Below, in pieces: positions 3,764 through 60,853 of a DNA stretch of 64,000 bases. The DNA comes from Cordylochernes scorpioides (taxonomy: Eukaryota > Arthropoda > Arachnida > Pseudoscorpiones > Chernetidae), in contig CP092886.1 in NCBI GenBank assembly GCA_030710605.1, forward strand, positions 160,006,000-160,069,999. The letters are read 5' to 3'. The position numbers were made by a program, and so were the translations under genes. Each line of letters starts with the position of its first letter. Position 1 is the stretch's first letter. The notes below the pieces were generated by a model. It saw only the letters and a list, made by a program, of their open reading frames with translations, searched no databases and had not been told where the DNA came from.

Positions 3764-3889
3764 ATACAAGGGAATAAGACCAAATCCAAATAAATAGTGT
3801 CTGAAGATGGTAACAATGCTGTTACCGAAACATCACACACTATTTATTTATTTGGATTTGGTCTTTTTAGGTTGTGTTTATAATCTACT
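3764..3889. mobile_element. PAL-1 palindromic element, truncated left arm
   Basis: Family PAL-1: arms reading 'ggtaataagaccaaatcc' inverted around a central motif with CTGAAGATGGTAAC, a stem, GAAAC and CACACTATT. This copy begins inside the left arm and is cut at 3888 by a Helitron end. See 4361-4577 for the full form and the hammerhead-like fold. Confidence 0.7.
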
Positions 3890-4360: not shown

Positions 4361-4577
4361 AAACACAAGGTAATAAGACCAAATCCAAATAAATAGTGTG
4401 TGACTGTTACTTTTAACAGTAATTATTTACAACATGTGATATAATTTCTCATTCAGTACTTTTGTCTGAAGATGGTAACAACGCTGTTACCGAAACGTCA
4501 CACACTATTTATCTATTTGGATTTGGTCTTATTACCTTGTGTTTATTATCTATAATCCAAATTGTGCCTTATCATTT
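4361..4577. mobile_element. PAL-1 palindromic element
   Basis: A full-length copy. The arms 'aaacacaaggtaataagac' and its complement enclose a central region, and the right half holds the hammerhead-like block at 4463-4502. The tail 'tccaaattgtgccttatca' is shared by all copies (7056, 10398, 12985, 15421, 18819). The near-perfect inverted arrangement of one block fits inverted pseudo-LTR pairs of Penelope-like elements; that origin is inferred. Confidence 0.7.
4463..4502 (+). ncRNA. Hammerhead-like motif in PAL-1
   Basis: Order of parts: stem I strand TGT (4463-4465), core CUGAAGA (4466-4472), one unpaired U, stem II GGUAACA/UGUUACC (4474-4480 and 4485-4491), GAAA (4492-4495), then AC/GU pairing with no loop (4495-4498), C at the cleavage position (4499), stem I strand ACA (4500-4502). 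All core bases fit the hammerhead consensus. The extra U before stem II and the loopless stem III are not canonical, so cleavage, if any, may need a dimer. Confidence 0.45.
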
Positions 4578-5949: not shown

Positions 5950-6105
5950 CACTATTTTTTTATCAGACTGGTCGGTAGTGGACTTGTGGATCTCATGAAA
6001 TCAAAGCCCACCCTGGACTGATGAGGGCCATTAGCCCAAAACCCTGGTCTTCAGGTGGGCGCTTCTCAATTTTCCAAAGCTGGTGTTTTGTCTTTGTTAC
6101 CAACC
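5950..6105 (+). mobile_element. HH-a repeat, copy 1
   Basis: Family HH-a: 'catgaaatc', a GCCCACC block, a hammerhead, then 'ttttccaaagctggt'. Other copies are at 20615-20800, 21050-21310 and 41425-41580. Short, non-coding and dispersed, so retrozyme- or SINE-like in kind. It lies directly upstream of an HH-b repeat. Confidence 0.6.
6006..6060 (+). ncRNA. Type I hammerhead ribozyme, one core mutation
   Basis: Core CUGAUGA at 6018-6024. Stem II is GGGC/GCCC (6025-6028 and 6034-6037) with loop CAUUA. The next bases are AAAA (6038-6041) where GAAA is required, so G12 is lost. Stem III is A-U plus two C-G pairs closed by CU (6041-6048), with C at the cleavage position (6049). Stem I pairs 6012-6017 with 6050-6055 and continues past one bulged C. 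The G12 change should abolish or strongly reduce cleavage. Confidence 0.7.
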
Positions 6106-6244
6106 AGAGTTTGCTAGTTTGTGGAGATGGTCAATAGATGGCGCTTAGTTTTGGCATCTATTTGACAGTAGAGGTGACATATTTTTATTTAAAATAAAGA
6201 AGGCATATCCTGACCAGGAGCACATGTGCTTAACAAAAGGCAGA

Positions 6245-6258
6245 GCGCCATCTAGTGG
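6245..6258 (-). promoter_or_regulatory. CTCF consensus site in HH-b repeat
   Basis: CCACTAGATGGCGC on the minus strand matches the published CTCF core consensus CCASYAGRKGGCRS at all 14 positions. CTCF is conserved across bilaterians; binding here is inferred. Near matches occur in the other HH-b copies (46179-46192, 43569-43582). Confidence 0.4.
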
Positions 6259-6338
6259 AACAGAAATCAACTACACTTTGATTTAGCCTGTTCCCTAATT
6301 TTGGCCAACTCATTTTCTTGACAAATCAAGAAAAGCCA

Positions 6339-6380
6339 TTCATGAATGCATTTCGCGCTGTTGGCACTCGTCAGCATGGA
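6339..6380 (-). ncRNA. Type I hammerhead-like motif (HH-b copy 1)
   Basis: Minus strand: stem I UCCAUG (6380-6375), core CUGACGA (6374-6368), stem II GUGC/GCGC (6367-6364 and 6358-6355) with loop CAACA, GAAA (6354-6351), stem III AU/AU with loop GC (6351-6346), U at the cleavage position (6345), stem I CAUG (6344-6341). Stem I has four pairs, then a mismatch. Every conserved core base is present. Confidence 0.6.
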
Positions 6381-7055
6381 GCCGGCTGTACCACTGCGAT
6401 CAAAAATTATATATATATATATATATATTTTTATATTGTTATCAAATACCATCAATAACCTTTTGGGGAACTTTGAATCAAATTGGGGGTGTGTTGGACT
6501 ATAATCAGTTGGTTCAAAGTAGGTTGAGATTGAATTATTATTTTATCCTTTTTGTCCCTAAAGGCCAAATCCTTGAGAACTTCACAATTCCATATTTGTG
6601 ACTTGTATACCAGCACAATTAGCCACTGGGACTATCTAGCATTTTTCAGGGGTCTAGTGAGGAAGTGTAACTTGGACCTGACTTTGTCTAAAAATGTAAT
6701 CTTCATATTCTTTTCATAATTCTCTTTGTCTTCTTCTTCAATGTTGATCCTTTCAAAGGATGCACAGATTCTGGGTTTATTATTTGAATGTTTGCAGACA
6801 TTCTTCACCAACAGCTGAAGTCTTCAGCCAGATGACTGAATCCAGAGGGAGTGCCTGCAGTATCTCAAGCATGCATCAGGCTGATTAGAGAAGACACAAA
6901 GAAGCCAGCTTGAAAGTAACATCTTTCTCCTTGTTTAACCCTAATCATGTTTTGATTTTCCAATTTGGCTACTTAATGCTTCTTGTAGCTCAGCACACAT
7001 TTTACCCTTTCAGTAGGTCTTGTACCACTTTTGACTTTCAATTAATTGATGTAAT

Positions 7056-7170
7056 GATAAAGCACAATTTAGATTATAGATACAAGAAAATAAGACCTAA
7101 TCAAATAAATTGATAGTGTGTGACATTTCGGCAACAGTGTTGTTACCATCATCAGACAAAAGAATACATT
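7056..7170. mobile_element. PAL-1 fragment (one arm)
   Basis: One arm with the outer tail 'aagcacaatttagattata', then 'agacctaatcaaataaa' and the complement of the GAAA/CTGA motif (TTTCGGCAACAG ... CATCAGAC). The opposite arm is missing. Confidence 0.65.
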
Positions 7171-10397: not shown

Positions 10398-10627
10398 TAA
10401 ACACAAGGTAATAAGACCAAATCCAAATAAATAAATAGAATGTGACGTTTCGGTAACAAGGTTGTTACCATTTTCAGACAAAAGTACTGAAGTACTGAGT
10501 ACTTTCAGTACCTTTATCTGAAGATGGTAACAACGCTGTTACCGAAACGTCACATTCTATTTATTTATTTGGATTTGGTCTTATTACCTTGTGTTTATAA
10601 TCTATAATCCAAATTGTGCTTCATCAT
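10398..10627. mobile_element. PAL-1 palindromic element
   Basis: A full copy with near-perfect inverted arms. The right arm holds CTGAAGA (10518-10524), stem II GGTAACA/TGTTACC (10526-10543), GAAA (10544-10547) and ACGTC; the left arm has the complement. Stem I is weaker than in the 4361 copy. Confidence 0.75.
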
Positions 10628-12984: not shown

Positions 12985-13143
12985 ATTATAAACACAAGGT
13001 AATAAGACCAAATCCAAATAAATAAATAGTGTGTGACGTTTCGGTAAAAGCGTTGTTACCAAAATGTCATACACTATTTATTTATTTGGATTTGGTCTTA
13101 CTACCTTGTATTTATAATCTATAATCCAAATTGTGCCTTATCA
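12985..13143. mobile_element. PAL-1 palindromic element, short centre
   Basis: Both arms are present, but the right arm lacks the CTGAAGA-stem II block: 'gcgttgttaccaaaatgtc' joins the two arms directly. A natural deletion derivative. Confidence 0.7.
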
Positions 13144-15420: not shown

Positions 15421-15605
15421 AAACACAAGGTAATAAGACCAAATCCAAATAAATAAATAGTGTGTGATGTTTCGGTAACAGCATTGTTACCATCTTCAGA
15501 CAAAATTGCTGAATAAATATTGTCTGAAGATGGTAACAACGCTGTTACAGAAATGTCACAAACTATTTATTTATTTGGATTTAGTCTTATTACCTTGTGT
15601 TTATA
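15421..15605. mobile_element. PAL-1 element split by a pogo-like transposon
   Basis: Both arms lie at 15421-15605. The shared tail 'tttataatccaaattgtgcc' resumes at 16722-16745, after the 1.1-kb pogo-like element inserted at a TA in the right arm. Confidence 0.75.
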
Positions 15606-18383: not shown

Positions 18384-18461
18384 TTATTCATCATCCTTAT
18401 CCTTGTCAAGGTAGTTGCTGACGTAGTGGAGCAGCACGTCGTAGCAATACTTGTACTCCAT
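18384..18461 (-). CDS. RPTP exon 12: C-terminus and stop
   Basis: The last coding exon, 78 bp with TAA at 18384-18386. It encodes MEYKYCYDVLLHYVSNYL followed by an acidic tail, DKDKDDE. Known R2B phosphatases end D2 with a D-QYKFCYEVALEYL block, so this is the final helix of D2. The acceptor reads TTCACAG just above 18461, phase 0, and joins exon 11. The acidic tail is an extension beyond the usual end. No polyadenylation signal could be assigned. Confidence 0.85.
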   Translation of the reverse strand: MEYKYCYDVLLHYVSNYLDKDKDDE

Positions 18462-18563
18462 CTGTGAACATTCACCCCCCACATAAAATGGTGATTATTA
18501 TTTGACAACAGTTGGGACAAAGAGAGATTTAAATATTTTCACGTGCAGAGCTCAATTCAAATA

Positions 18564-18743
18564 CAGTAGAACCTCCCTGTAAAGAACAACACCTAATTGC
18601 AGAGCCAAAGTGTCCTTTAGGAAGAGGTATCCTCTTACCGGAGAGTTTCTAAATTGTAAAAATGGTAATTTTGAAAATGAAAACTGACCTTTGTAGAGAG
18701 GTGTCCTCTAGCGCGAGTGTCCTCTCATGGAGAGGTTCTACTG
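18564..18743. mobile_element. Pogo-like MITE
   Basis: CAGTAGAACCTCCC to GAGGTTCTACTG with TA flanks, 180 bp, just upstream of the last phosphatase exon, in the final intron. Confidence 0.8.
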
Positions 18744-18818
18744 TATACCACACCCTAATGAGCTCTGGTAATTTTAAATAAATCTATGTGAATATAATAT
18801 TCTATTTTGGCCATCACA

Positions 18819-19016
18819 TAAGGTAATAAGACCAAATCCAAATAAATAAATATTGCGTGACGTTTCGGTGACAGTGTTGTTACCATCAGACATTTTCAAT
18901 ACTTTTGTCTGATAATGGTAAAAAGCTGTTAACAAACGTCACACAATATTTATTTATTTGGATTTAGTCTTATTACCTTGTGTTTATAATCTATAATCCA
19001 AATTGTGCCTTATCGA
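18819..19016. mobile_element. PAL-1 palindromic element
   Basis: Both arms are present; the central motif has decayed (CTGATAATGG, AACAAACGTC), so GAAA is lost in the right arm. Confidence 0.7.
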
Positions 19017-19838
19017 TTTAGGCCTTCATAAATATGCTGGATTCCATAATGAGACCAAAAATAGATCTACCGTGTTTATATATTGAAACTAGAGCAATAG
19101 ACTGTTTAATGTAATATGGCATCCAGGTATAAGCCGTGTTAAAGTTTACCTTAAGCTAAATAATATAGAGCATTATACCATTGCACATAAAATGGAAAAT
19201 TTCAAGAATAATTAAACATAAAAATACGTCGATGTAATAAATTCAAACGATTCTCACGCCATTTCCATCACAGAATAAGGAGATCAAGCGTCAGATCCCT
19301 TGGATACAAAACATATGTCTGATATGAAAATAATTCATAAATATAACTCTGAAATAAATATGTATTTAAAGGTACGCACACACATGCATTTAAAATGAGT
19401 AATTTTTTTTAAATATTACTATAAAAGGTTATAAATATATAGAATCGAATCAGCAATATTATATTGAGAAATTCGATGCAACCATCGAACATCCGAGTTA
19501 AAGAAACAGTACACTCTGATTGGTTAATTAAACTAACGTGACAGTGAGCATCAAATCAGATGCCATCAGTCCGCTGTCACATGACATTAACATCCAATCT
19601 AATTGCGAATAAAACGGATACCAAATTAAGCCAGTTGATTGACAGACTTGCAAAATTATCTGATAAATTCAACTGCTATAATTGATATTTATTGAACTCG
19701 GAAAAATGCCATTTTTTAAAATCACTTTTTCATAAGCGCTCGCTCTGTTAGCCCATCGCACCTTTTTATCTTTTAAAACCTTGCGCATTTAAAAATAAAT
19801 GTGACATAACGGCCTCACATATCTGACGCTATACAATG

Positions 19839-20460
19839 GAGAGCTATTGGGAGGACGGAAGTGTGGTACTGAGGTCGCCAAGTGGCGCAATGTTAACAGA
19901 AAGCTCTGGAAACAATTCAGTGGAGCCGAAACGAGAAGACCAGGGCAGGGCCGAAAAAAAAATCAACACGATCCAAGAAGACCACTATCTGATTCTGACA
20001 TAGAGGGGGACAGCTACTCATCTCTCCAATAAGCTCTCAAGTGCCTCTGGAACGACGGTTTCAAGAAAATTGTTTATCAGAGCTAATCATAACGGTGATC
20101 TTTCTGTAAGACGACCAATGGTAGGTGTCCCTCTCAACCCTTCTCACAGGAAGCCAGCATGAATTGGTGCCATGGACATCAGTCTTGGAACCAGGGTCTT
20201 ATGCTCTTTTCAGACACGAGACAAGATTCAGTCTAGACCACTGTTTTTCGGTGAATCTTTACCTGGAGAGAACCTGCTTCCATCTCACTAGCATTAGGAA
20301 GAGACTACTCGTATTTTGGAATTGGTTGGGAATGGTCTCGTGTTCAAGGTCCGCTTCACGTGTTTTTGGGGGCACATTGGCAACTCAATGTCACAGGAAC
20401 GATAGTATTGAGCGAGATCTTTCAGGGATGTGTCCCCCAGTTCAATTTTATTGATGATCA
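19839..20460 (+). pseudogene. Tc1-type transposase pseudogene
   Basis: Frames on the plus strand give, in order, a helix-turn-helix piece with ETRRPGQGRKK, then RRPMVGVPLNPSHRKP (20112-20159), then DKIQSRP/RFSLD near 20225. RRPGQGR and RRPMVGVPL are hallmarks of Tc1-family transposases, followed in intact copies by the first catalytic Asp (DESRF). Several frameshifts and stops break it, and the DDE residues are not recoverable. A Tc1-like terminal repeat lies at 20580-20603. It sits in an intron of the phosphatase gene on the opposite strand. Confidence 0.75.
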
Positions 20461-20579
20461 AATATTTCGTAAATACCTATAGAATAAATTTACAAAATTC
20501 CTAATTTTTAATAATCTATTTAAGATATATCTATTTTATTTAATCTATTTTTTTGTAAAATCTACATTTTATGTTTCTT

Positions 20580-20603
20580 CACTTAATTTTGGGCACCAGT
20601 GTA
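20580..20603. repeat. Terminal inverted repeat of Tc1-like element
   Basis: CACTTAATTTTGGGCACCAG followed by TGTA; its complement starts TACACTGGTGCCCAAAA, a typical Tc1 end. The matching left terminus was not found before 19839. Confidence 0.55.
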
Positions 20604-20614
20604 TATAAACAAGT

Positions 20615-20800
20615 TGAGCCTTTCCGTTTAAAATTGCATTGAGGCAATGTAGATGGGTGAATGAGCCACTAAATACCAGTTTTAGTAAATCCGAACAAAG
20701 CCAACCACCTATATACCATGGTTTCAGGCTATGGCCTTCATCAGTACAGGTGCGGCTTCGATTTCATAATATCCTACGAGAGGAGTTATAAAATTGGACA
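20615..20800 (-). mobile_element. HH-a repeat, best-preserved copy
   Basis: On the minus strand: 'ggatattatgaaatcgaag', GCACCTG, the hammerhead, GTGGTTGGC, 'ttcggatttactaaaactg'. Shares 'atgaaatc' and the hammerhead with 5950-6105 and 41425-41580. Non-coding. Confidence 0.65.
20706..20752 (-). ncRNA. Type I hammerhead ribozyme, all core bases present
   Basis: Read on the minus strand. Stem I is CACCUGUA (20752-20745) with UAUAGGUG (20713-20706): eight pairs, one G-U. Core CUGAUGA is at 20744-20738. Stem II is AGGC/GCCU (20737-20734 and 20729-20726) with loop CAUA. GAAA is at 20725-20722. Stem III has A-U and two C-G pairs closed by AU (20722-20715). A sits at the cleavage position (20714), so the predicted cut is between 20714 and 20713. 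Every invariant base of the family is present. It is the same strand as the phosphatase gene, inside the intron between exons 11 and 12. Confidence 0.85.
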
Positions 20801-21049
20801 CGCTTTCCCAACTGATGAAGTAACAAGGCCGTATTCCGTATTCTGGACTAACTATTTATTTATTTATTTACTTTCCTTGTAAGCGATTGGCCTATAAATT
20901 CTCTGAAACTTGGCCTAGTTTTACTTTGTGTTGTGTATCGTATATATATACAGCATATGTGCCCAAAACATTTCTTCATTCTTGAAAATACATCAAGACT
21001 GCATATTTCTAGAAAACTCGGATCAGATTCGAATAGGCGACATCAGTGC

Positions 21050-21310
21050 CACAACACCAGCTCTGGTCAATTTGTAACAAAGCTGACCAGTATACCATGA
21101 TTTAGGCCCTCATCAGGACAGGAATTTCGTTATATCCTCTATGGGAAAAACTATGAAATCAGCTTAATCTGTAAAAAAATATTTAGATGATGGAAGGGTA
21201 GCCACCCCTGTATTGATGAGCGCCATAGCCAAAACCCGTTTTGATTAGTGCCATAGCCTGGAATCATGGTATACTCGTAGGTTTTCCGAATTTGGCAAAG
21301 CTGTGGAGTA
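21050..21310. mobile_element. Two decayed HH-a repeats in inverted orientation
   Basis: The minus-strand copy (about 21060-21150) keeps CUGAUGA and CAUGGUAUAC but has lost half of stem II. The plus-strand copy (about 21190-21305) has UUGAUGAGCGCCAUAGCC and a second partial block GAUUAGUGCCAUAGCC, then UGGAAUCAUGGUAUAC, so it contains an internal duplication. Both are predicted inactive. Confidence 0.55.
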
Positions 21311-21647
21311 CCCACCTGCTTCAAATCTGTGAGCTCTGCTCAGAGTTGACCAAGAAAATTTAATTGTTTTAACGGTTTTAAAATACCAGTGAATTTTCTT
21401 GCGACCGCGAATAATTCTGTAAAATTATTGCAACTGCAAAGATGCACCTCTTTCTGTGTGCCTCCAAATGCGCCCAAATCTCTGAACAATTATCTGGACT
21501 AAGTGATCTACAAACAGATAAACAACAACTATTTGAAGTCTAAAAGGCCCGAGAAAGCTTCTATTAAACATCATTAAGTATTCACAAAACACCCTATCTG
21601 TATAATTTCATGCTAAAAAAGATATTATAGAAAACACAATTTTATAG

Positions 21648-21830
21648 ATTATATAAAAGGGCGTACCTGGATCTGTAAAAGAAAAAAAAAACAATTTTTT
21701 ACTTAAAATATTTCGAGAGATTGCTCCCTCTTTATCAATAATTATTTTTGACTAATAAATATCTATATTTTAAGAAAAAAATTGTTTTTTTTTTTCTTTT
21801 ACAGATCCAGGTACGCCCTTTTATATAATC
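21648..21830. repeat. Foldback with splice-like arms
   Basis: Arms 21648-21711 and 21765-21830 are near-perfect inverted repeats. Each arm, read inward to outward, has a long pyrimidine tract, TTTTACAG, six bases (ATCCAG), then GTACGC. Confidence 0.65.
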
Positions 21831-22138
21831 TTAATTAATGGATCGCCTTTTGACTCAAACCATTTTATAGGTTGGCTTTATAATTAAGTGATATATGATT
21901 TACTTCAACCTTTTAAAACTTTATTCCTACGTTTCGTTAAAAAAAAAAACTTCGTTTATGTTCATTGTATATAAAACATCGACGCGCTCTGTGTTTTCGA
22001 TATCAGATCATTCATAACTTGACCTCTAGTAAGCATTCTTCAATAAAGTTTTCCTTGAAAAGGGCGATTAGAGGATAAATGTCGGGATAAAGGTTTAAAA
22101 AAGTAGAAATAAATCATATTTGTCACTCTACGTAAAAA

Positions 22139-22262
22139 TTGACATGGACCCAGAGCAGCAGCTTTACACACCCAAGATAGTGGGCATTGCTACTGCTGTG
22201 ATAGAGATGCATGGGGACATCTGAGGTTCTTCATTGGACACGACAACAACAACAATAACTCA
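22139..22262 (+). mobile_element. LINE 3' tail fragment
   Basis: TTGACATGGACCCAGAGCAG to 'ggacacgacaacaacaac', the closest match to the LINE tail at 52893-53020 (complement). A 5'-truncated insertion ending in CAA repeats, 27 bases from the exon 11 donor. Confidence 0.65.
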
Positions 22263-22289
22263 ACATAAAGAATTGAGAGGCTAACACAC

Positions 22290-22613
22290 CAAGTTGGCCA
22301 CGAGCTGGGGCCGGTGGCGGCGCACCGTCTTGACGGCCTGGAAGATGTCGACTTCGCCGTGCTGCACAGCTTGCTCGATGGCCACGTTAGCCGCGCAATA
22401 GACGCCAGCGCGGCCCTTGCCGTTCATGCTCACCACCACCACAGGGCCATACTCCGTGCGCTGACGCCAGCGCTCCACCATATTCATAAGCTCAACCAAG
22501 GCCTTGGTTGATGTGGGAACCTTATGGCCCACAGGCCAGCACGTCAGCTGGAAGAGCTGCGTGGTCCGCGGAGCCGCCTTCACTCCGGCCATCAGCTCCG
22601 TCAGTGACACTAC
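22290..22613 (-). CDS. RPTP exon 11: D2 catalytic-site region
   Basis: A 324-bp phase-0 exon, acceptor TTGCAG above 22613 and donor GTGTGT below 22290. It encodes 108 residues covering the D2 WPD-loop region and signature loop: TQLFQLTCWPVGHKVP, then GPVVVVSMNGKGRAGVYCA, then VDIFQAVKTVRRHRP. The R2B D2 pattern (LFQFLGWP, HC-x5-R, VDVFHAVKTLRNNKP) aligns throughout. The signature reads VSMNGKGR: the catalytic Cys is Ser, the preceding His is Val, and the loop Arg is kept. WPD is WPV. D2 domains of tandem receptor phosphatases are commonly inactive and act in binding or regulation. GC-rich third positions contrast with the AT-rich introns. Confidence 0.92.
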
Positions 22614-23586
22614 CTGCAACGGATCAAATTCGAGGCTTTGTCTTCAACTTGCCTTTTTGACTTCAAAAATAATCTGCTCAATTTCTAACCTGGATTTGAT
22701 GATGTCAAAATGCCATTTACTTCAAATAAAAACAAATATTAATTTTGAAAATTTTGAACAGTCTTCGGCTTAAAAAATTAATTACATTTCAAAATTCACA
22801 AAAAAGGGCAGAGGAAGGGTTTACCTTATATCTTGCAATATAAATCATTTTCTTCAAAGTGTGGGTTTGTCGATTTACCAATAGAGAATTTTAGCCTTGA
22901 CACAATTCTGAGTTCTCCTGGCGAGTTTACACATTTAGTTACACTCAGTACTTACTTCTCGGAAAATTAATCACAGGTAGCATGAATCTGTTTGAATATA
23001 TTGCTGTTAAACCTCTAGATAAATATTGGTTTGTAACGGTATCTTAAACCTTTACTGATATACTGGGGTTTTCCATATAATTTATATATTTTAGCTCTTC
23101 AAAATTTTATTTATATTTATAGAAATCTTAAACTATATTTGCATATAAAAATTGCATATCATCTCACAGTACCATTCAAAACTTGAGAAACACTATTCAC
23201 AAATGTCAATTTGCAATATATTACTTGTGAATGGATATTCTCATCAATATACGTATATTTGACAGAATTTAAGAACTAAAATAAATAGTTTGAATGTTTC
23301 ATGTCGTGATTCAGATCATTTGCGCATTATAGAACATGTCGTGATGAACTTTTTATTATTTATTTTTATTTGAAAAGAGAAGTCTTCAGGATTGTAACAA
23401 TATATTACTATGGAACAACTATACCACAGAATTGTTTAGCTCACACTATATACAGCATGTTGTGGATACAGTAATATTGCTTAATGTTAATCATGATATA
23501 TTCGATTGAAATAAATTTTATAAAATGTTAGTCCACACACAATTATAATGTTAATTCATGACAACACAATTCAATAAAAATATATA

Positions 23587-35355: not shown

Positions 35356-36658
35356 TAAATTCAGAGGATTCTTCCGATTAACCAAAATGTACACAATTTA
35401 GGCTCATTTTCATACGACAATGCCAGTCTCCAAGGTTGAAATAGTAAGAGTCACGTTTATATTTAAAATATTTATTTTTAAACTTTTTTACAAAAAGATG
35501 AATAGACAAATTTTGTTCTAGAACCCAAAGATGCTATCTGTAAAGGTTCCAAACAATACATCTGGAAGGTCGAGTGGGCAATCACTGGGAAACAGATAAG
35601 AAATAAATGATTTGCGAATGTGGAATCCTTCCAAACTTATTAAGAGAAAAGGGAAAATAATTTTAAATCCTAATTCAGTTCTCCAAAGTTTAAATGAATG
35701 GCGCCCAATTACTTTGATGAATACAGAATATAAAATTATTTCATGAGAAATAAAAAGCTAATTATTAAAATAAAATTATATTTTCTAGGATTGTAAGTAT
35801 AATCATTTTTATTAACGCTCTCTATTTATTCTATTTCATTAGCGCAATAAGCTAGCTTTAATTGTCAAACGCTTGTTTCAAAAGTCGAACAGCACAATGT
35901 TAAAACAGCTTCTAGATCAAATGCGCTACTATCTACGCGCAGCCCATTGTTCCTAGATGTACTTACCAGACACTGAGGGCATGAAACACAACTTTTAGAT
36001 ATATGCCATTTACTACGTTCTTAAAACTACTCTTCTAGAATTCTTGTTAAAATGCTCTTTATATGACTGCTCTAATTATACTTTATGTCAGAGCTTTATC
36101 TCGGAATTATGTTTGACTCTCTGCAATCTTTGCTAAATTTCTCTCAAACATACCTACAATTATTCTAATTTTTCTTCTCTTTCAAAATAATTTAATATTT
36201 GGTATGCGCAATTATTTTTGTCATGTGTGTGTTCGTGCAATAAAAAACTCAATTTTCTAAATAAATAAGAAAAAGTCCTTAAATCTGAAACATTCTTTAA
36301 ATATTAACGGATTTCCACTCCAATGCGCACATAGTGTATAATACAGAAATGTCCAATATATTTGGGGAGGGGATAAAGATAAAGGCTTAATTAATATTTT
36401 TGAATACCGTAGGTATAAATATAGAGAGAAATTGAAATTTCCACTTTATATGTATTAGAACATAAAAACGAATTTCCTAGCATTATCAAGCAGAGAGATA
36501 ACGATAGATTTGAAATATATATAAATCTACAAGTCATTACTCATATATTTACAGAAATCAAATCCAGAATACGAATGGAAGATTTATACATGGGTTATGC
36601 AAATTTTCGACACGTTTGGCTGAATTTTCCCCACTACACTTGGCAGCGGCTACTGTAC

Positions 36659-37280
36659 ACACCTCTTTCACATATACATAAATGTATACACTCTGGCCAC
36701 TGTATCCACCTCTTTGGTAAATAAAGGAATGTATACACTCTGGCCACTGTATCCACCTCTTTGGTAAATACAGGAATGTATACACATGGTCACTGTATCC
36801 ACCTCTTTGGTAAATACAGGAATGTATACACTCTGGCCACTGTATCCACCTCTTTGGTAAATAAAGGAATGTATACACTCTGGCCACTGTATCCACCTCT
36901 TTGGTAAATAAAGGAATGTATACACTCTGGCCACTGTATCCACCTCTTTGGTAAATACAGGAATGTATACACATGGTCACTGTATCCACCTCTTTGGTAT
37001 ATACAGGAATGTATACACTCTGGCCACTGTATCCACCTCTTTGGTAAATACAGGAATGTATACACTCTGGCCACTGTATCCACCTCTTTGGTAAATACAG
37101 GAATGTATACACTCTGGCCACTGTATCCACCTCTTTGGTAAATACAGGAATGTATACACTCTGGCCACTGTATCCACCTCTTTGGTAAATACAGGAATGT
37201 ATACACATGGTCACTGTATCCACCTCTTTGGTATATACAGGATTGTATACACACTGGCCACTGTATCCACCTCTTTGACA
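36659..37280. repeat. 47-bp minisatellite, about 13 units
   Basis: The unit CACTGTATCCACCTCTTTGG plus 'taaatacaggaatgtatacac(tctggc)' repeats with almost no change; 46-bp variants with ATGGTCAC replace CTCTGGCCAC at about 36785, 36972 and 37205. The 47-base period shifts frame each unit, giving long minus-strand frames (up to 221 codons) that I reject as genes. It lies in the intron between exons 6 and 7 of the phosphatase. Confidence 0.9.
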
Positions 37281-41239: not shown

Positions 41240-41424
41240 CTGTACACACATAGAAATTCGGTCACATATTAGGAATTTTCTATGATTATTTATCTACTTG
41301 TATTGACTATGATATCCCTTGTTATAAGGATGATAAGCGGAGATAAACGTCTCTCCCAATTAACTACAATGAACTCAGTTCTAAGATCGTCACTTCACCA
41401 GCTCTCTTTGAAACATTCAGTCGA

Positions 41425-41580
41425 TTCCATCTCGTAGGATGTTATGAAATCGCCCCTGCGCTGACTAAGGCCATAGTTCTACTGCCATTTATAATTCTAC
41501 TCTTAAACTTTTACCTTTATTGTCCCTGATATCACCCATGGTATACATGTTGGCTTATATCTCTGATTTTCCAAAGCTGG
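41425..41580 (+). mobile_element. HH-a repeat, decayed and interrupted
   Basis: 'ggatgttatgaaatcg', CCCCTGCG, CTGACTAAGGCCATAG (41461-41476), then unrelated bases, then CCATGGTATACATG (41537-41550) and 'tttccaaagctggtgtt'. The hammerhead is broken in core (A8 position) and stem II/GAAA. Confidence 0.5.
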
Positions 41581-41624
41581 TGTTGTGACATATTTCTATA
41601 TTTTAAATATTTTAAATATATTTC

Positions 41625-42914: not shown

Positions 42915-43514
42915 CTGAGGACACACAACAGAATTGGAATAGTTAGTGAACGCTGTGAGAAGAAAAAATAAAAATGTATAACATAAATTACAACATTCTC
43001 CATGCAGGATCTTTGAGTGAAAACATTTGATAGAGTTAAATTCGGTTCATGTAAAACCTAATTTAAACTTTTGTTTCCGACAATTCTAATTCTATTCCGC
43101 ACCTGGAGGATGTTGGATGCTTCAACTGAAGGAATTCTCTTTAAGTGAAATAGTTCCTTCTAGTGAAATGGGACTTTTATAAAAGGGCCCTAATCCAATT
43201 CTCTCCGGAGGAACACCACTGGGCGGAGCGCCATTAGGCTCTCTCCGGATCTCTCTCAAATACCATCAGCCAAGGCCGAGTCATTTAACCTCCGCCGGTG
43301 GAGCTGAGTCAGTTTGCACTTCATTAAACGGGGATCTGGGTCCCTACACGGTGAGGAGAGAACTATTCCTTTTGATTTCTATCTATCTAATATTTTACTA
43401 TATATATATATATATTAAAAATTAATAATTAAATTAAATATAATTAAAAATTAATATATATATATATTAAAAAACAATAGAAAAAAATAATAAAAGGGTC
43501 AGATGTTGATTTTT

Positions 43515-43735
43515 AAAATAATGAAGGCATATCCTGACCAGGAGCACACGTGCTTTTTAGATGGCAGAACGCCATCTAGTGGAACAGAAATAAACTAAAC
43601 ATTGATTTAACCTGTTCCCTGATATTTGGCCAACCCAATTTCTTGATAAATCAAGAAAAGTCAACCACGTAAGCGTTTCGGGCTATTGGTCCACGTCAGC
43701 GTGGTGCAGACTGTATCTATACGATCAAATATTTG
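43515..43735 (-). mobile_element. HH-b repeat, copy 2
   Basis: All HH-b blocks are present. The hammerhead at 43664-43705 keeps a perfect six-pair stem I (ACCACG/CGUGGU) but has CUGACGU for CUGACGA and a C-U mismatch in stem III. The CTCF-like site at 43569-43582 has one mismatch. Predicted inactive. Confidence 0.65.
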
Positions 43736-46080: not shown

Positions 46081-46122
<42 letters not shown>

Positions 46123-46124
46123 TT

Positions 46125-46345
46125 AAAACAAAGTAGGCATATCCTGACCAGGGGCACATGTGCTTTTCAGAAGGCAGAGCGCCATCTGGCGGAACAGAAA
46201 TCAACTATTCATTGATTTAACCTGTTCCCTGATATTTGGCCAACCCAATTTCTTGATAAATCAAGAAAAGCCATCCACGAACGCGTTTCGCGCTGTTGGA
46301 GCTCGTCAGCGTGGAGTAGGCTGTACCACTGCGACCAAAAAAAAA
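46125..46345 (-). mobile_element. HH-b repeat, copy 3
   Basis: A full HH-b copy adjoining a (TA)n run at 46081-46115. The CTCF-like site at 46179-46192 reads CCGCCAGATGGCGC (one mismatch). A PAL-6 fragment (46360-46500) and an inverted HH-b fragment (46500-46575) follow directly. Confidence 0.7.
46274..46315 (-). ncRNA. Type I hammerhead ribozyme (HH-b copy 3)
   Basis: Minus strand: stem I UCCACG (46315-46310) with CGUGGA (46279-46274), six perfect pairs; core CUGACGA (46309-46303); stem II GCUC/GCGC (46302-46299 and 46293-46290) with loop CAACA and one U-C mismatch; GAAA (46289-46286); stem III AC/GU with loop GC (46286-46281); U at the cleavage position (46280). All conserved core bases are present. 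The stem II mismatch is the only defect. Confidence 0.7.
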
Positions 46346-49921: not shown

Positions 49922-49941
49922 GTCTCCGTGGCGCAATCGGC

Positions 49942-49978
<37 letters not shown>

Positions 49979-49995
49979 GAGCCCACCCGGGGACG
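49922..49995 (+). tRNA. trnN: tRNA-Asn (GTT)
   Basis: A complete cloverleaf: acceptor stem GTCTCCG/CGGGGAC, anticodon stem TTCGG/CCGAA with loop CTGTTAA (anticodon 49956-49958), T arm with GGTTCGAGCCC, discriminator G. A-box TGGCGCAATCGG and B-box GGTTCGAGCCC serve as the internal Pol III promoter, and a run of six or more T follows as terminator. No intron. It does not carry the SINE body, so it is a true tRNA gene. Confidence 0.93.
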
Positions 49996-54907: not shown

Positions 54908-55920
54908 TTAATAATACTCCAGTCGGTCTGGGGGTTTCCTGGCTCTCTGAGGTCTAGGACTGCGGACGGGCACTTGCACAGCGGCAGGCTCCGGTTTAGG
55001 AGTGCAAGAGGGTACGTGCACAGCAACAGGCCCTGGTCTAGGAGAGCAAGAGGGTACGTGCACAGAAGCAGTCTCCTCCTTGTTTCCTGATGTAACCTCT
55101 GGAACCTCCTCTTCACTTTATTTCTGACTTCCACCTACAGGCTTCCCTCCTGATGTTCGAGGAAGTATCAAATTTCTTGTCTCCACTTGTTTCTTTCTCA
55201 CAGGTCGCAATTGGTTGATATGTCTCTTATACACGACGCCCTCGCAACTTATAAGGTAGTGACGGTAGCTCAATAATTTCAAAATGGTACCTTTTTACCG
55301 TTTAGGTCCAGTTGCATAGTTGCGGAAATAATCCTTGCAAATTGTAGTAAACTGCTCCTGCCTTCTTACGGCCTTATGAAATACCTCTCGCGGATTTCCC
55401 ATCTTGGTATTAATTTCGAGGATCTTGATCATAAACTTCTCTTCATTAGCAGTTCCGCGGGGGAATTCCTTTATTACAGCTTGGGGGAATGCTCTATGAG
55501 CAAATAGGTATCTTTGTAGATTCGTCTCTAAATCATCCTTCCCATTATTCTTTCTCAAAAGGTATTTAAACTCTCTTACATATCTCTCAGCTAAACTATT
55601 TGTACTAGGCTTTAAGGGACTGGTCTTAGTGTGCCGTATACCATTCATTTTGGTAAATTGCTCGAATTCACCGGAGACAAACTGTCTTCCGTTATCTGTA
55701 ACCAAAAATTAGGGCAATCCAAATCTGGCAAAAATTTCTCTAAGATTATTTATAATCGTTTTGCTGGTAATATCTTTGATGATAAAATTTCTATCCACTT
55801 TGAGTATGCGTCCACGAGAACCAAAAACATTCTTCCCATGAACGGACCCGCTAAATCAAGATGAAGGCGATGCCACCGGTTTTCGGGCCAAGTCCATTCC
55901 GAGATGGTAGCCGGGGGCAT
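54908..55920 (-). pseudogene. Gypsy integrase
   Basis: Minus-strand frame: VTDNGRQFVSGEFEQF (second catalytic Asp in DNG), then HTKTSPLKPSTNSLAERYVR (catalytic Glu in AER). The C-terminus, in another frame, has tandem VHVPSC-SPRP repeats and ends ARKPPDRLEYY with TAA at 54910-54908, directly beside the polypurine tract. The upstream zinc-binding part (55900-56000) is decayed. Confidence 0.75.
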
Positions 55921-56157
55921 GCTTACCAATTCTTGGCATACTCTACATTCTCTAGGTAACTCCTCGATGTTACTGTCTATGCCTGACCACCAGAAAATAC
56001 TGTCTGGTAATCATCTTCATTTTAACAATCCCCATGTGTATTTCATGCAAGTCATTTAAAATTAAAGATCTTAATTTTTGGGGAATTACCACTCTTTCAC
56101 GCCATTGAAGACAACCAAACTCCAAACTTAATTCCTCATTCATCTTAAATTGAGGAG

Positions 56158-56712
56158 CTAGTGGGTTTTCTCTCGGTACCCTTGTGAATTTCCCACACAG
56201 TTGCCTTCTCTAACATTCCTTAATACTATAGACAGTATTTTATCTTGGGGCGTCTCATATGACACCTCCATAAAAGAGAACGGAACCTCATTCAACCTCC
56301 TGAGAAGAAGTACCTGGTCTTCATCAAGAGACTCCCTGACACTCGATTCTAAAGGAAGACGTGACAATGCGTCAACATTGGAATTATCACTAGTTTTTCG
56401 AAATTCCAGAGTATAATTAAATGCAGCTAATTTTAAAGACCATATTTTAATTCTGGATGATGCACATATGGGAATTGGTTTATGAGGTGAAAATATATTA
56501 ATTAAGGGTCGGTTGTCTGTGACCAATTCAAATTTTCGTCCCAGTAAGTATTGTCTGAATTTCTCAACGCCAAAAGTTATGCTCAACGCTTTCTTTTCTA
56601 GTTGAGAGAAACGTTTTTCCGCTTCAGTTAATGTTCTAGAAGCAAAAGCTATAGGGCATTCTTCCTTTCTATCATTTCTATGACTCAGAATTACACCTAG
56701 TCCATAGTCCAT
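56158..56712 (-). pseudogene. Gypsy RNase H domain
   Basis: MDYGLGVILSHRNDRKEECP, IAFASRTLTEAEKRFSQLEK and FELVTDNRPLINIFSPHKP. The E of 'RFSQLEKKALSI' and D of 'VTDNRPL' are the conserved catalytic positions. It continues to DALSRLPLE, the usual border to the integrase. Confidence 0.8.
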
Positions 56713-57024
56713 TAATAATGATTTACATTTTTAAAATAACATTCGATATTCTTTCGTCCAATTCCATCTACAATTTTTATTCAAAAGTTGATAGAATGCG
56801 CTAAAATGTTTGCTATATTCTTTATGAATCTATAATAATAAATTAAGAGTCCTATGAAATATCTTAATTGCGAAATATTCTTTAGGTTCACGCGTCTCTA
56901 TCACTGCTTTAATTTTATTTTCTAAGGGATGCAGTCCATATTTATCCATTTTAAACCCTAAATATTCCACCGATTTCTTTTTAATTTACATTTATATCTG
57001 TTTAACTTTAAATCTTTTTCTAGC

Positions 57025-57470
57025 AATCATCTAAACACTAGATCCAACTTTTGGTCATGATCTTCAAAGTCTTTTCCTGCAACCAAAATATCATTTATGT
57101 AGCAGGCCACACCTGGCAAATCAGCAAATAGACCTTCCATAATCCTCTGAAATTTATTTGGTGCTACCGCTACGTCATATGGTAGTCTTTTATAAGAAAA
57201 CAACCTCTTTGTTGTGTTTATATCAGCAACAGCTTTAGCTTCTTCCGCTAACATTACTTGTAAGTAAGCCTGTGATAGGTCTAGAGTCGAAAGTACGGTG
57301 CTTTTAGATAATTTTGAAAAGATCTCATCGATCGATGGAAGGGGATATCTATCTAATTCTAGTGCTTTATTAGCTGCACATCTAAAATCACCACATATCC
57401 TTACACTACCATCCTTTTTTAATAATGGTACTATTGGAGCTGTCCAATAGGCATGAACTATAGGTTATAA
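57025..57470 (-). pseudogene. Gypsy reverse transcriptase
   Basis: TAPIVPLLKKDGSVRICGDF, RYPLPSIDEIFSKL, STLDLSQAYLQVMLAEE (first catalytic Asp), FSYKRLPYDVAVAPNKFQRI, then VACYINDILVAGKDFEDHD. The catalytic YxDD is YIND: the first Asp of the pair is Asn, a GAT-to-AAT change, so the copy could not polymerise. Confidence 0.8.
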
Positions 57471-60099: not shown

Positions 60100-60853
60100 T
60101 CACAGGTCTATACGTCTACCTCTAGGTATCGATACTTTTGCAGCTTTGGATATGTTCGAAGAGAATTTTTCCAATTTTTTGTCAATCGTTTTGTGATTTA
60201 ATTCTTCGTTGCACAGTTCTTCAAGCTTTTCTGTAATTTTTTTTTCCAATGTTCTTTTATTCTGTTGGAAATTCTCAATTTTGAATTTTATGGTTGTTAA
60301 AATTGGTCTGTGGTCACTGATTGTACTTTTCAGAATTTTCCATTGTGTTGTGGATGCGATGTTGTAATTTATCGCTGTGATGTCTATTGCGGATTCTTTG
60401 CCTGTGGACTTGGATAGATAGGTGTTATTTTTGTTATTTAACGGTGTAAGGTCGAGGTCGGTTAGCATGTCCTCAACCTGCTTACCTTTGTTATCCTGGA
60501 AAGGTGATCCCCAAGTTGGTCTTTCGGCGTTAAATTCACCAAGTATGATTGCGATATCCGAAGACGCTTCACTTAATGTCTCTATCAGGCCTATATTGAT
60601 GCTAGTATTATCGTGGTCATAAACATTTATGATTGGAATTGTTTTATTTGTAAGATAGATTTCTATTGCCTGAGCTTCTGTCGTGCGCTCTAGGCTCACT
60701 CTGATTATAGGCGATTTCCTTACATTTGATTTCTAGAGTTTTAATCAAAACGGCAAGTCCTTCTCCGAATTTTCCCGGTCTGCCTTTCGTAGTGTTGTAT
60801 AATCTTTGATATTGAATCTCAGATTCTGATTCAATTTTGTCTCCTGAGGACAA
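60100..60853 (-). pseudogene. LINE APE endonuclease
   Basis: IIPIINVYDHDNTSINIG-type strand, then SSDIAIILGEFNAERPTWGS (GDFNA is GEFNA), ESAIDITAIN, and TISDHRPILTTIKF with the SDH catalytic His block. An earlier frame (60853-60644) gives AVLIKTLEIKCKEI. The order and motifs fit the apurinic-type endonuclease of Jockey/I LINEs. Confidence 0.8.

Follow-up and report, generated by a model that had tools for sequence, protein, structure and literature searches.

An intronic hammerhead ribozyme motif in the pseudoscorpion Cordylochernes scorpioides is very likely an aged copy of a retrozyme-type repeat

In C. scorpioides, a type I hammerhead ribozyme motif (20706..20752, minus strand; here called A1) lies in sense orientation within the last intron of an X-chromosomal gene for a receptor-type tyrosine phosphatase. 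A1 is very likely an old copy, a monomer decaying neutrally, of a non-coding and non-autonomous element of the animal-retrozyme type. This reading builds on the motif itself, the repeat families to which it belongs, a tandem array, partial tandems, a palindrome, compensatory pairs in a sister family and the position in the intron, all of them observed in the window (the whole stretch of 64,000 nucleotides analysed) or elsewhere in the same genome.

A hammerhead in the sense strand of an intron

Read on the minus strand from 20752 to 20706, A1 runs CACCUGUA-CUGAUGA-AGGC/CAUA/GCCU-GAA-A-CCAUGG-U-A and then, past the predicted cleavage position between 20714 and 20713, UAUAGGUG. Stem I (20752-20745 with 20713-20706) has 8/8 pairs, one of them G.U; it is followed by CUGAUGA (20744-20738), stem II (20737-20726; 4/4 pairs), GAA (20725-20723), the A15.1..U16.1 palindrome ACCAUGGU (20722-20715), which is self-complementary over 8 bases, and A17 (20714). 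The original prediction had listed all of these core bases, an eight-pair stem I, an AGGC/GCCU stem II and cleavage at 20714/20713, and the sequence and the layout of the core bear it out on each. The type I class holds as well: CUGANGA, GAAA, A15.1-U16.1 and H17 are correctly placed, stem I is open, and a strict descriptor (below) finds the site. The stem III that had been proposed, with three pairs and a two-base loop, is implausible; a hairpin of that shape is too tight for RNA. In a lone molecule, helix III can instead be modelled as an A-U and a C-G pair closed by a CAUG tetraloop and, between two molecules, ACCAUGGU can give 8 intermolecular pairs. Beyond an internal loop (G/GUU) lies an outer stem I (AAGCC/GGCUU), with which the hammerhead spans 20698..20758; in both repeat families described below, stem I is interrupted by an internal loop and loop II measures 4-5 nt. 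Judged by its sequence, A1 is a genuine hammerhead motif.

Where does the motif sit in the gene? Upstream lies the D2-domain exon (PF00102; 22290..22616, minus strand), ending at the donor TTG/GTGTGT (22289), and downstream, past the acceptor TTCACAG/ATG (18462 side), the last coding exon, MEYKYCYDVLLHYVSNYLDKDKDDE and a stop (18384..18461, minus strand). For the latter, 18 residues align to the C-terminal end of a phosphatase from Ixodes hexagonus (P0002; 67%, E 0.037). These exon placements on either side put the last intron, by homology, at 18462..22289 (3,828 nt), and A1 lies inside it in sense, as had been claimed. With the spliced phosphatase exons of the window as query, the best match was the C. 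scorpioides protein LAZ67_X004457, which aligns to the window exon by exon and is identical save at some alignment ends. Compared with the exons at 22284-22616 and 18384-18461, the deposited model of LAZ67_X004457 is without the last phosphatase exon, reads into the last intron and stops.

Two related repeat families in the window

A1 is one of five family A copies in the window, alongside three copies of a sister repeat, family B, that are 82-88% alike over about 210-220 nt. At A1, family A similarity usually extends over ~167 nt (20658..20824, minus strand), a monomer near the size of a 153-bp satellite unit found elsewhere in the genome and shorter than the ~300 nt common to many copies. 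A2 (21041..21158, minus strand), 379 nt upstream of A1 on the same strand, has stem II and the G12 region deleted. On the strand opposite A1, A3 (21189..21329, plus strand) has a mutated core and its 5′ half twice; A4 (5967..6120, plus strand) has GGGC/GCCC for the stem II of A1 (AGGC/GCCU) and G12 changed to A, and in A5 (41416..41589, plus strand) an insertion breaks the hammerhead and the core is mutated. The family B copies all lie on the minus strand: B1 (6188..6408; hammerhead 6332-6389) has an intact core and the palindrome AUGCAU, B2 (46122..46341; hammerhead 46267-46324) an intact core, one stem II mismatch and the palindrome ACGCGU, and B3 (43510..43733; hammerhead 43657-43714) a change of A9 to U. 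The full core is thus kept in A1, B1 and B2, and broken in A2, A3, A4, A5 and B3.

Some of these hammerhead repeats adjoin as inverted pairs, head-to-head and tail-to-tail (21041-21158, minus, with 21189-21329, plus; 5967-6120, plus, with 6188-6408, minus), and opposite-strand copies also lie near each other at several other loci in the genome.

Among B1-B3, 5 of 16 pairs have changed on both sides, spread over all four helices, outer stem I included, in a comparison of three sequences only, with the structure drawn on those same sequences. Five such pairs were reached in 2 of 500 shuffles, and slid partners gave at most 1. Outer stem I is paired in 100% of cells in B1-B3 and in 90.7% in 37 distinct family A copies. 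The putative hammerhead of family B is, in the window copies, kept through compensatory changes.

A covariance model built from B1-B3 only, searched against the window, recovered A4 (E 1.4e-5) and A1 (E 5e-4), the next match having E 1.9; with structure removed from the model, the E-values weakened to 0.02 for A4 and 0.18 for A1. Rfam is less telling. At gathering scores it yields no hammerhead in the window, and a stretch of 451 nt gave none even at E<=10. When the 61-nt stretch of A1 is submitted alone, Hammerhead_HH9 comes out top of 4,227 families, with 14.5 bits and E 0.17 against a cut-off of 52. B1, likewise as 61 nt, gives Hammerhead_1 as its top family (19.2 bits, cut-off 34; E 0.008). 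Since B1 also stays under the cut-off with its core intact, Rfam is not decisive for A1. The sub-threshold alignments are gapped in loop III, that to HH9 also in stem I, and the tested copies probably fall below the cut-offs because their helix III is very short. As they do fall below, counts of ribozymes in arthropod genomes made at Rfam cut-offs may be too low.

Copies across the genome

A first look at the genome gave 2,958 family A candidates. All 40 scored places match (40/40), and the 39 besides A1 are 84-88% identical to it. The core is intact in 35 of these 40 copies (A1 and 39 fetched), a biased sample because the query itself is intact, and the palindrome ACCATGGT is present in 32. 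The family A alignment comprises 38 of the 40, without L033, which is almost identical to L034, and L030, which has an insertion. For family B, 40 of 1,441 candidate places were scored; the 39 besides B2 are 94-98% identical, a range that reflects the places nearest the query B2, which were the ones scored. With 34 of these 39 fetched and two short extra pieces left uncounted, the core is intact in 28 of 35 family B copies examined. Exact copies of the 33-nt catalytic segment number 382 in the genome; its reversed control has 0.

Could A1 nonetheless resemble the hammerhead consensus by coincidence? A strict type I descriptor (core, stem II of at least 4 bp, stem III of at least 2, stem I of at least 5, H17 not G) finds A1 as its only site in the whole window, both strands. 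Applied to both strands of 1,122 Mb simulated by a first-order Markov model with the dinucleotide make-up of the window, it finds 18 loci, a chance rate of 0.0010 per 64 kb. Because many windows were scanned, the evidence from the family outweighs this figure. The number of windows and the want of an Rfam match above cut-off are what would speak for coincidence; against the expected 0.001 per window, the repeat family, the B1-B3 covariation, the structural model built on family B and the 382 exact 33-mers, coincidence is ruled out in practice, its probability being next to nil. Scans of viral contigs with one family A and one family B string gave 0 and 0 matches.

How is the element built? The ends of similarity differ between copies. 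When 73 copies were compared together with their surroundings (stretches of 1.4-1.75 kb), the length shared had a median of at most about 320 nt, and a few pairs share more, as would be expected of segment duplicates. Of the 39 family A loci fetched, 28 show just one copy in about 800 nt by the pattern used, so cis dimers are exceptional outside the array described next. Of 34 family B loci fetched, 7 contain a second piece of the unit, offset by 337-343 nt; two of the seven, L051 and L052, seem to be duplicates of a single segment. The count of seven excludes L058, where an offset of 339 lies beside and not within the family B unit. At L066 the offset is 294.

Clearest of all is the 15-kb tandem array L084/L085 (C23:10,083,075-10,098,525), with 102 hammerhead units. 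Units are spaced 153 bp apart in 98 of 101 intervals and 152 bp in the remainder, 40 units compared show 97% identity, and core and palindrome are intact in 90 of 102. The array offers a ready natural substrate. It would also suit hammerhead satellite DNA that spreads by recombination of DNA arrays, without retrotransposition, but the scored A and B copies are found on many contigs and most fetched family A loci (28/39) hold a lone copy within about 800 nt, which makes such an origin quite improbable.

A somewhat better case, though still an unlikely one, can be made for an autonomous Penelope-like element, with A and B as pieces of its pseudo-LTRs and the hammerheads processing its transcript. 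According to PMC7761336 and PMC6466107, hammerheads of Penelope-like elements have a short helix III, a palindromic loop and tandem copies, and the partial tandems of family B suit pseudo-LTRs. The shared stretches around the 73 copies, however, have a median of at most about 320 nt, the 15-kb array consists of 153-bp units, and three window ORFs that look Penelope-like, tried for a Penelope enzyme, have no Pfam match at E<=1.

An element of the animal-retrozyme type accords with what is seen. Short tandem units (150-450 bp), each with a type I hammerhead, are found in the array and in family B, A1 being a monomer; GC is 39-46% in three units, below 50%, and the longest stop-to-stop frames are 53 and 61 aa in two units, in keeping with non-coding DNA. 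In the sequence features tested, the element is what an animal retrozyme should be, with scores below the Rfam cut-off.

An intact core in a probably decaying copy

Is the hammerhead in the phosphatase intron maintained for the sake of the gene? A1 differs from the majority of the other window copies at 12 of 77 sites (16%). A neutral copy of this age would keep all 15 core bases with a probability of about 0.08-0.13, and the same sum leads one to expect about 0.7 intact cores among the five family A copies of the window. With 8-13% of such neutral copies keeping their core, that of A1 needs no selection, is ruled out as evidence for a gene-specific function, and has probably been retained in the intron by luck. 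Structural selection on single copies was likewise sought in 37 distinct family A copies: compensatory pairs numbered 0, pairing was 92.9% vs 93.5% in shuffles, and slid partners even gave 3 double changes. With no compensatory pairs and pairing slightly below that of shuffles, single family A copies are not under visible structural selection.

These figures bear on the idea that A1 is a kept regulatory ribozyme, which by cleaving the last intron lowers or alters phosphatase mRNA. The sense orientation in the last intron and the fully intact core would fit, and there is a precedent in the conserved, active hammerheads described from introns of human RECK and C10orf118 (PMC3088659). A1, however, is 16% off its relatives' majority, and its core would be intact by chance with a probability of about 0.08-0.13; family A copies lack compensatory changes, hundreds of further copies exist, and the monomer folds weakly. 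We regard a regulatory ribozyme as very improbable. As one aged copy among at least hundreds, A1 is probably no special phosphatase switch; the earlier hint of a special intron gives way to a copy of a dispersed ribozyme repeat and, for the phosphatase gene itself, A1 is most likely ordinary.

Predicted folding of monomer and dimer

As a single RNA, A1 has a predicted minimum that is 1.7-2.9 kcal/mol more stable than the hammerhead fold. Within a transcript of 461 nt, pair probabilities are 0.07-0.23 for helix I, 0.31-0.33 for helix II and 0.0 for helix III, the helices being present in a minority of the predicted local ensemble. Cleavage by the lone motif in the intron is accordingly predicted to be weak. 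Tertiary contacts do not enter nearest-neighbour energies, so the nascent intron may still be cleaved weakly.

For two A1 copies, the predicted minimum is an exact double hammerhead (-36.6 vs 2 x -12.7), as it is for dimers of another family A copy, L024, and of the commonest satellite unit, a result that suits the retrozyme model. It is not the predicted minimum for dimers of B1, B2 and L051, nor for the cis dimer of A2 and A1. In a control with random-stem hammerheads, the dimer fold appeared in 127 of 300 with a palindromic helix III vs 16 of 300 without, so the double-hammerhead fold is partly a trivial outcome of the palindrome and no special proof. On these models, A1 may possibly still cleave, weakly as a monomer and better as a dimer.

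Mixed double hammerheads are likewise the predicted minimum for A1 with L024 (-30.4 vs -23.0 kcal/mol for the separate RNAs) and for A1 with the commonest satellite unit (-30.0 vs -21.9 kcal/mol separate). One can imagine cutting in trans, in which array-derived retrozyme RNA would pair with sense intronic copies through the 8-base palindrome and stem I and cleave host pre-mRNA; we consider this a long shot. If true, one repeat family would act on many genes together.

Discussion

How might such repeats spread? By analogy with the systems described in PMC7229834 and PMC7761336, we infer a cycle of cleavage, circle formation and retrotransposition. Transcription would yield multimers of family units 153 to about 340 nt long, every unit carrying a type I hammerhead, and adjacent hammerheads could form a double hammerhead by pairing through the palindromes of helix III (ACCAUGGU or ACGCGU). 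This would cut the transcript after H17 and release monomers; a host ligase might then close these into circles, and the reverse transcriptase of another element might copy the circles back into the genome.

The model proposed for retrozymes in PMC7229834 has the same outline, with read-through transcripts of arrays that self-cleave to monomers, circularise and spread. As that paper describes them, animal non-LTR retrozymes are non-coding, short tandem repeats with type I hammerheads and a GC content below 50%, several families of which occur per genome; repeats measure 150-450 bp and RNA circles ~170-400 nt (PMC7229834, Cervera and de la Pena 2020). The same paper reports type I hammerheads on small repeats from many invertebrates, arthropods included. 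The repeats found here share the type I hammerhead, the short non-coding units, tandem as well as dispersed, the low GC, the many copies and the presence of more than one family in a genome. They depart from the animal retrozymes of that description in a smallest unit of 153 bp, in their arachnid host and in being known here from DNA alone.

The original prediction had likened the short stem III to that of Penelope-like elements and animal retrozymes, and the accounts in PMC7229834 and PMC7761336 agree. Hammerheads of this build are described as acting as dimers through intermolecular pairing (PMC6466107, PMC7761336). The amphibian motifs, including HHR_Amex1 and HHR_Amex2 of the axolotl, are reminiscent of ours: in the text of PMC7229834, their helix III has one or two pairs and a tetraloop, palindromic in Amex1, and amphibian hammerhead motifs cleave well only as dimers. 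These two form tandem repeats of 330 and 350 bp and are likened to ours by description, not by sequence. Palindromic loop III, tandem copies and a double hammerhead are shared, too, with the Penelope-like variants presented in PMC6466107 and PMC7761336; unlike Penelope-like elements, the A and B repeats were found with no reverse transcriptase in the three window ORFs tried. Among arthropods, pDo500 of Dolichopoda, as portrayed in PMC2837043, is a satellite DNA with a hammerhead, a likeness again of description only. With the RECK and C10orf118 hammerheads, A1 shares the place inside a gene intron, and PMC3088659 also suggests descent from repeat elements; those ribozymes are, by that account, conserved across mammals and cleaved in vitro, whereas for A1 the neutral-decay estimate speaks against conservation.

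The kind of element is therefore already known. The arachnid host group appears to be new as far as our searches of open-licence literature reach, in which we found no paper on hammerhead ribozymes in pseudoscorpions. Abundant hammerhead repeats of the retrozyme type are hereby placed in an arachnid, in two related families, one with near-identical members.

Other features of the window

A third dispersed repeat runs through the window. Most copies have CTGANGA, a 7-bp hairpin and GAAACGTC or a near form, and several stand back-to-back. Copies lie at 3781-3861 (plus), 4462-4526 (plus), 7102-7158 (minus), 10417-10481 (minus) and 10516-10578 (plus), with further ones at 13008-13093, 15439-15507 (minus), 15509-15582 (plus), 18832-18893 (minus) and 18906-18965 (plus). 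We take this repeat to resemble a minimal Penelope-type hammerhead, but with an extra U before stem II. On the minus strand, 55295-57464 and 60100-60732 hold pieces of a Gypsy-like retrotransposon (reverse transcriptase, RNase H and a below-cut-off integrase) and a LINE-type endonuclease domain. A tandem repeat at 36648-37277 comprises 13.5 copies of a 47-bp unit, and a tRNA gene at 49922-49995 (plus) is the sole Rfam match at gathering score in the window.
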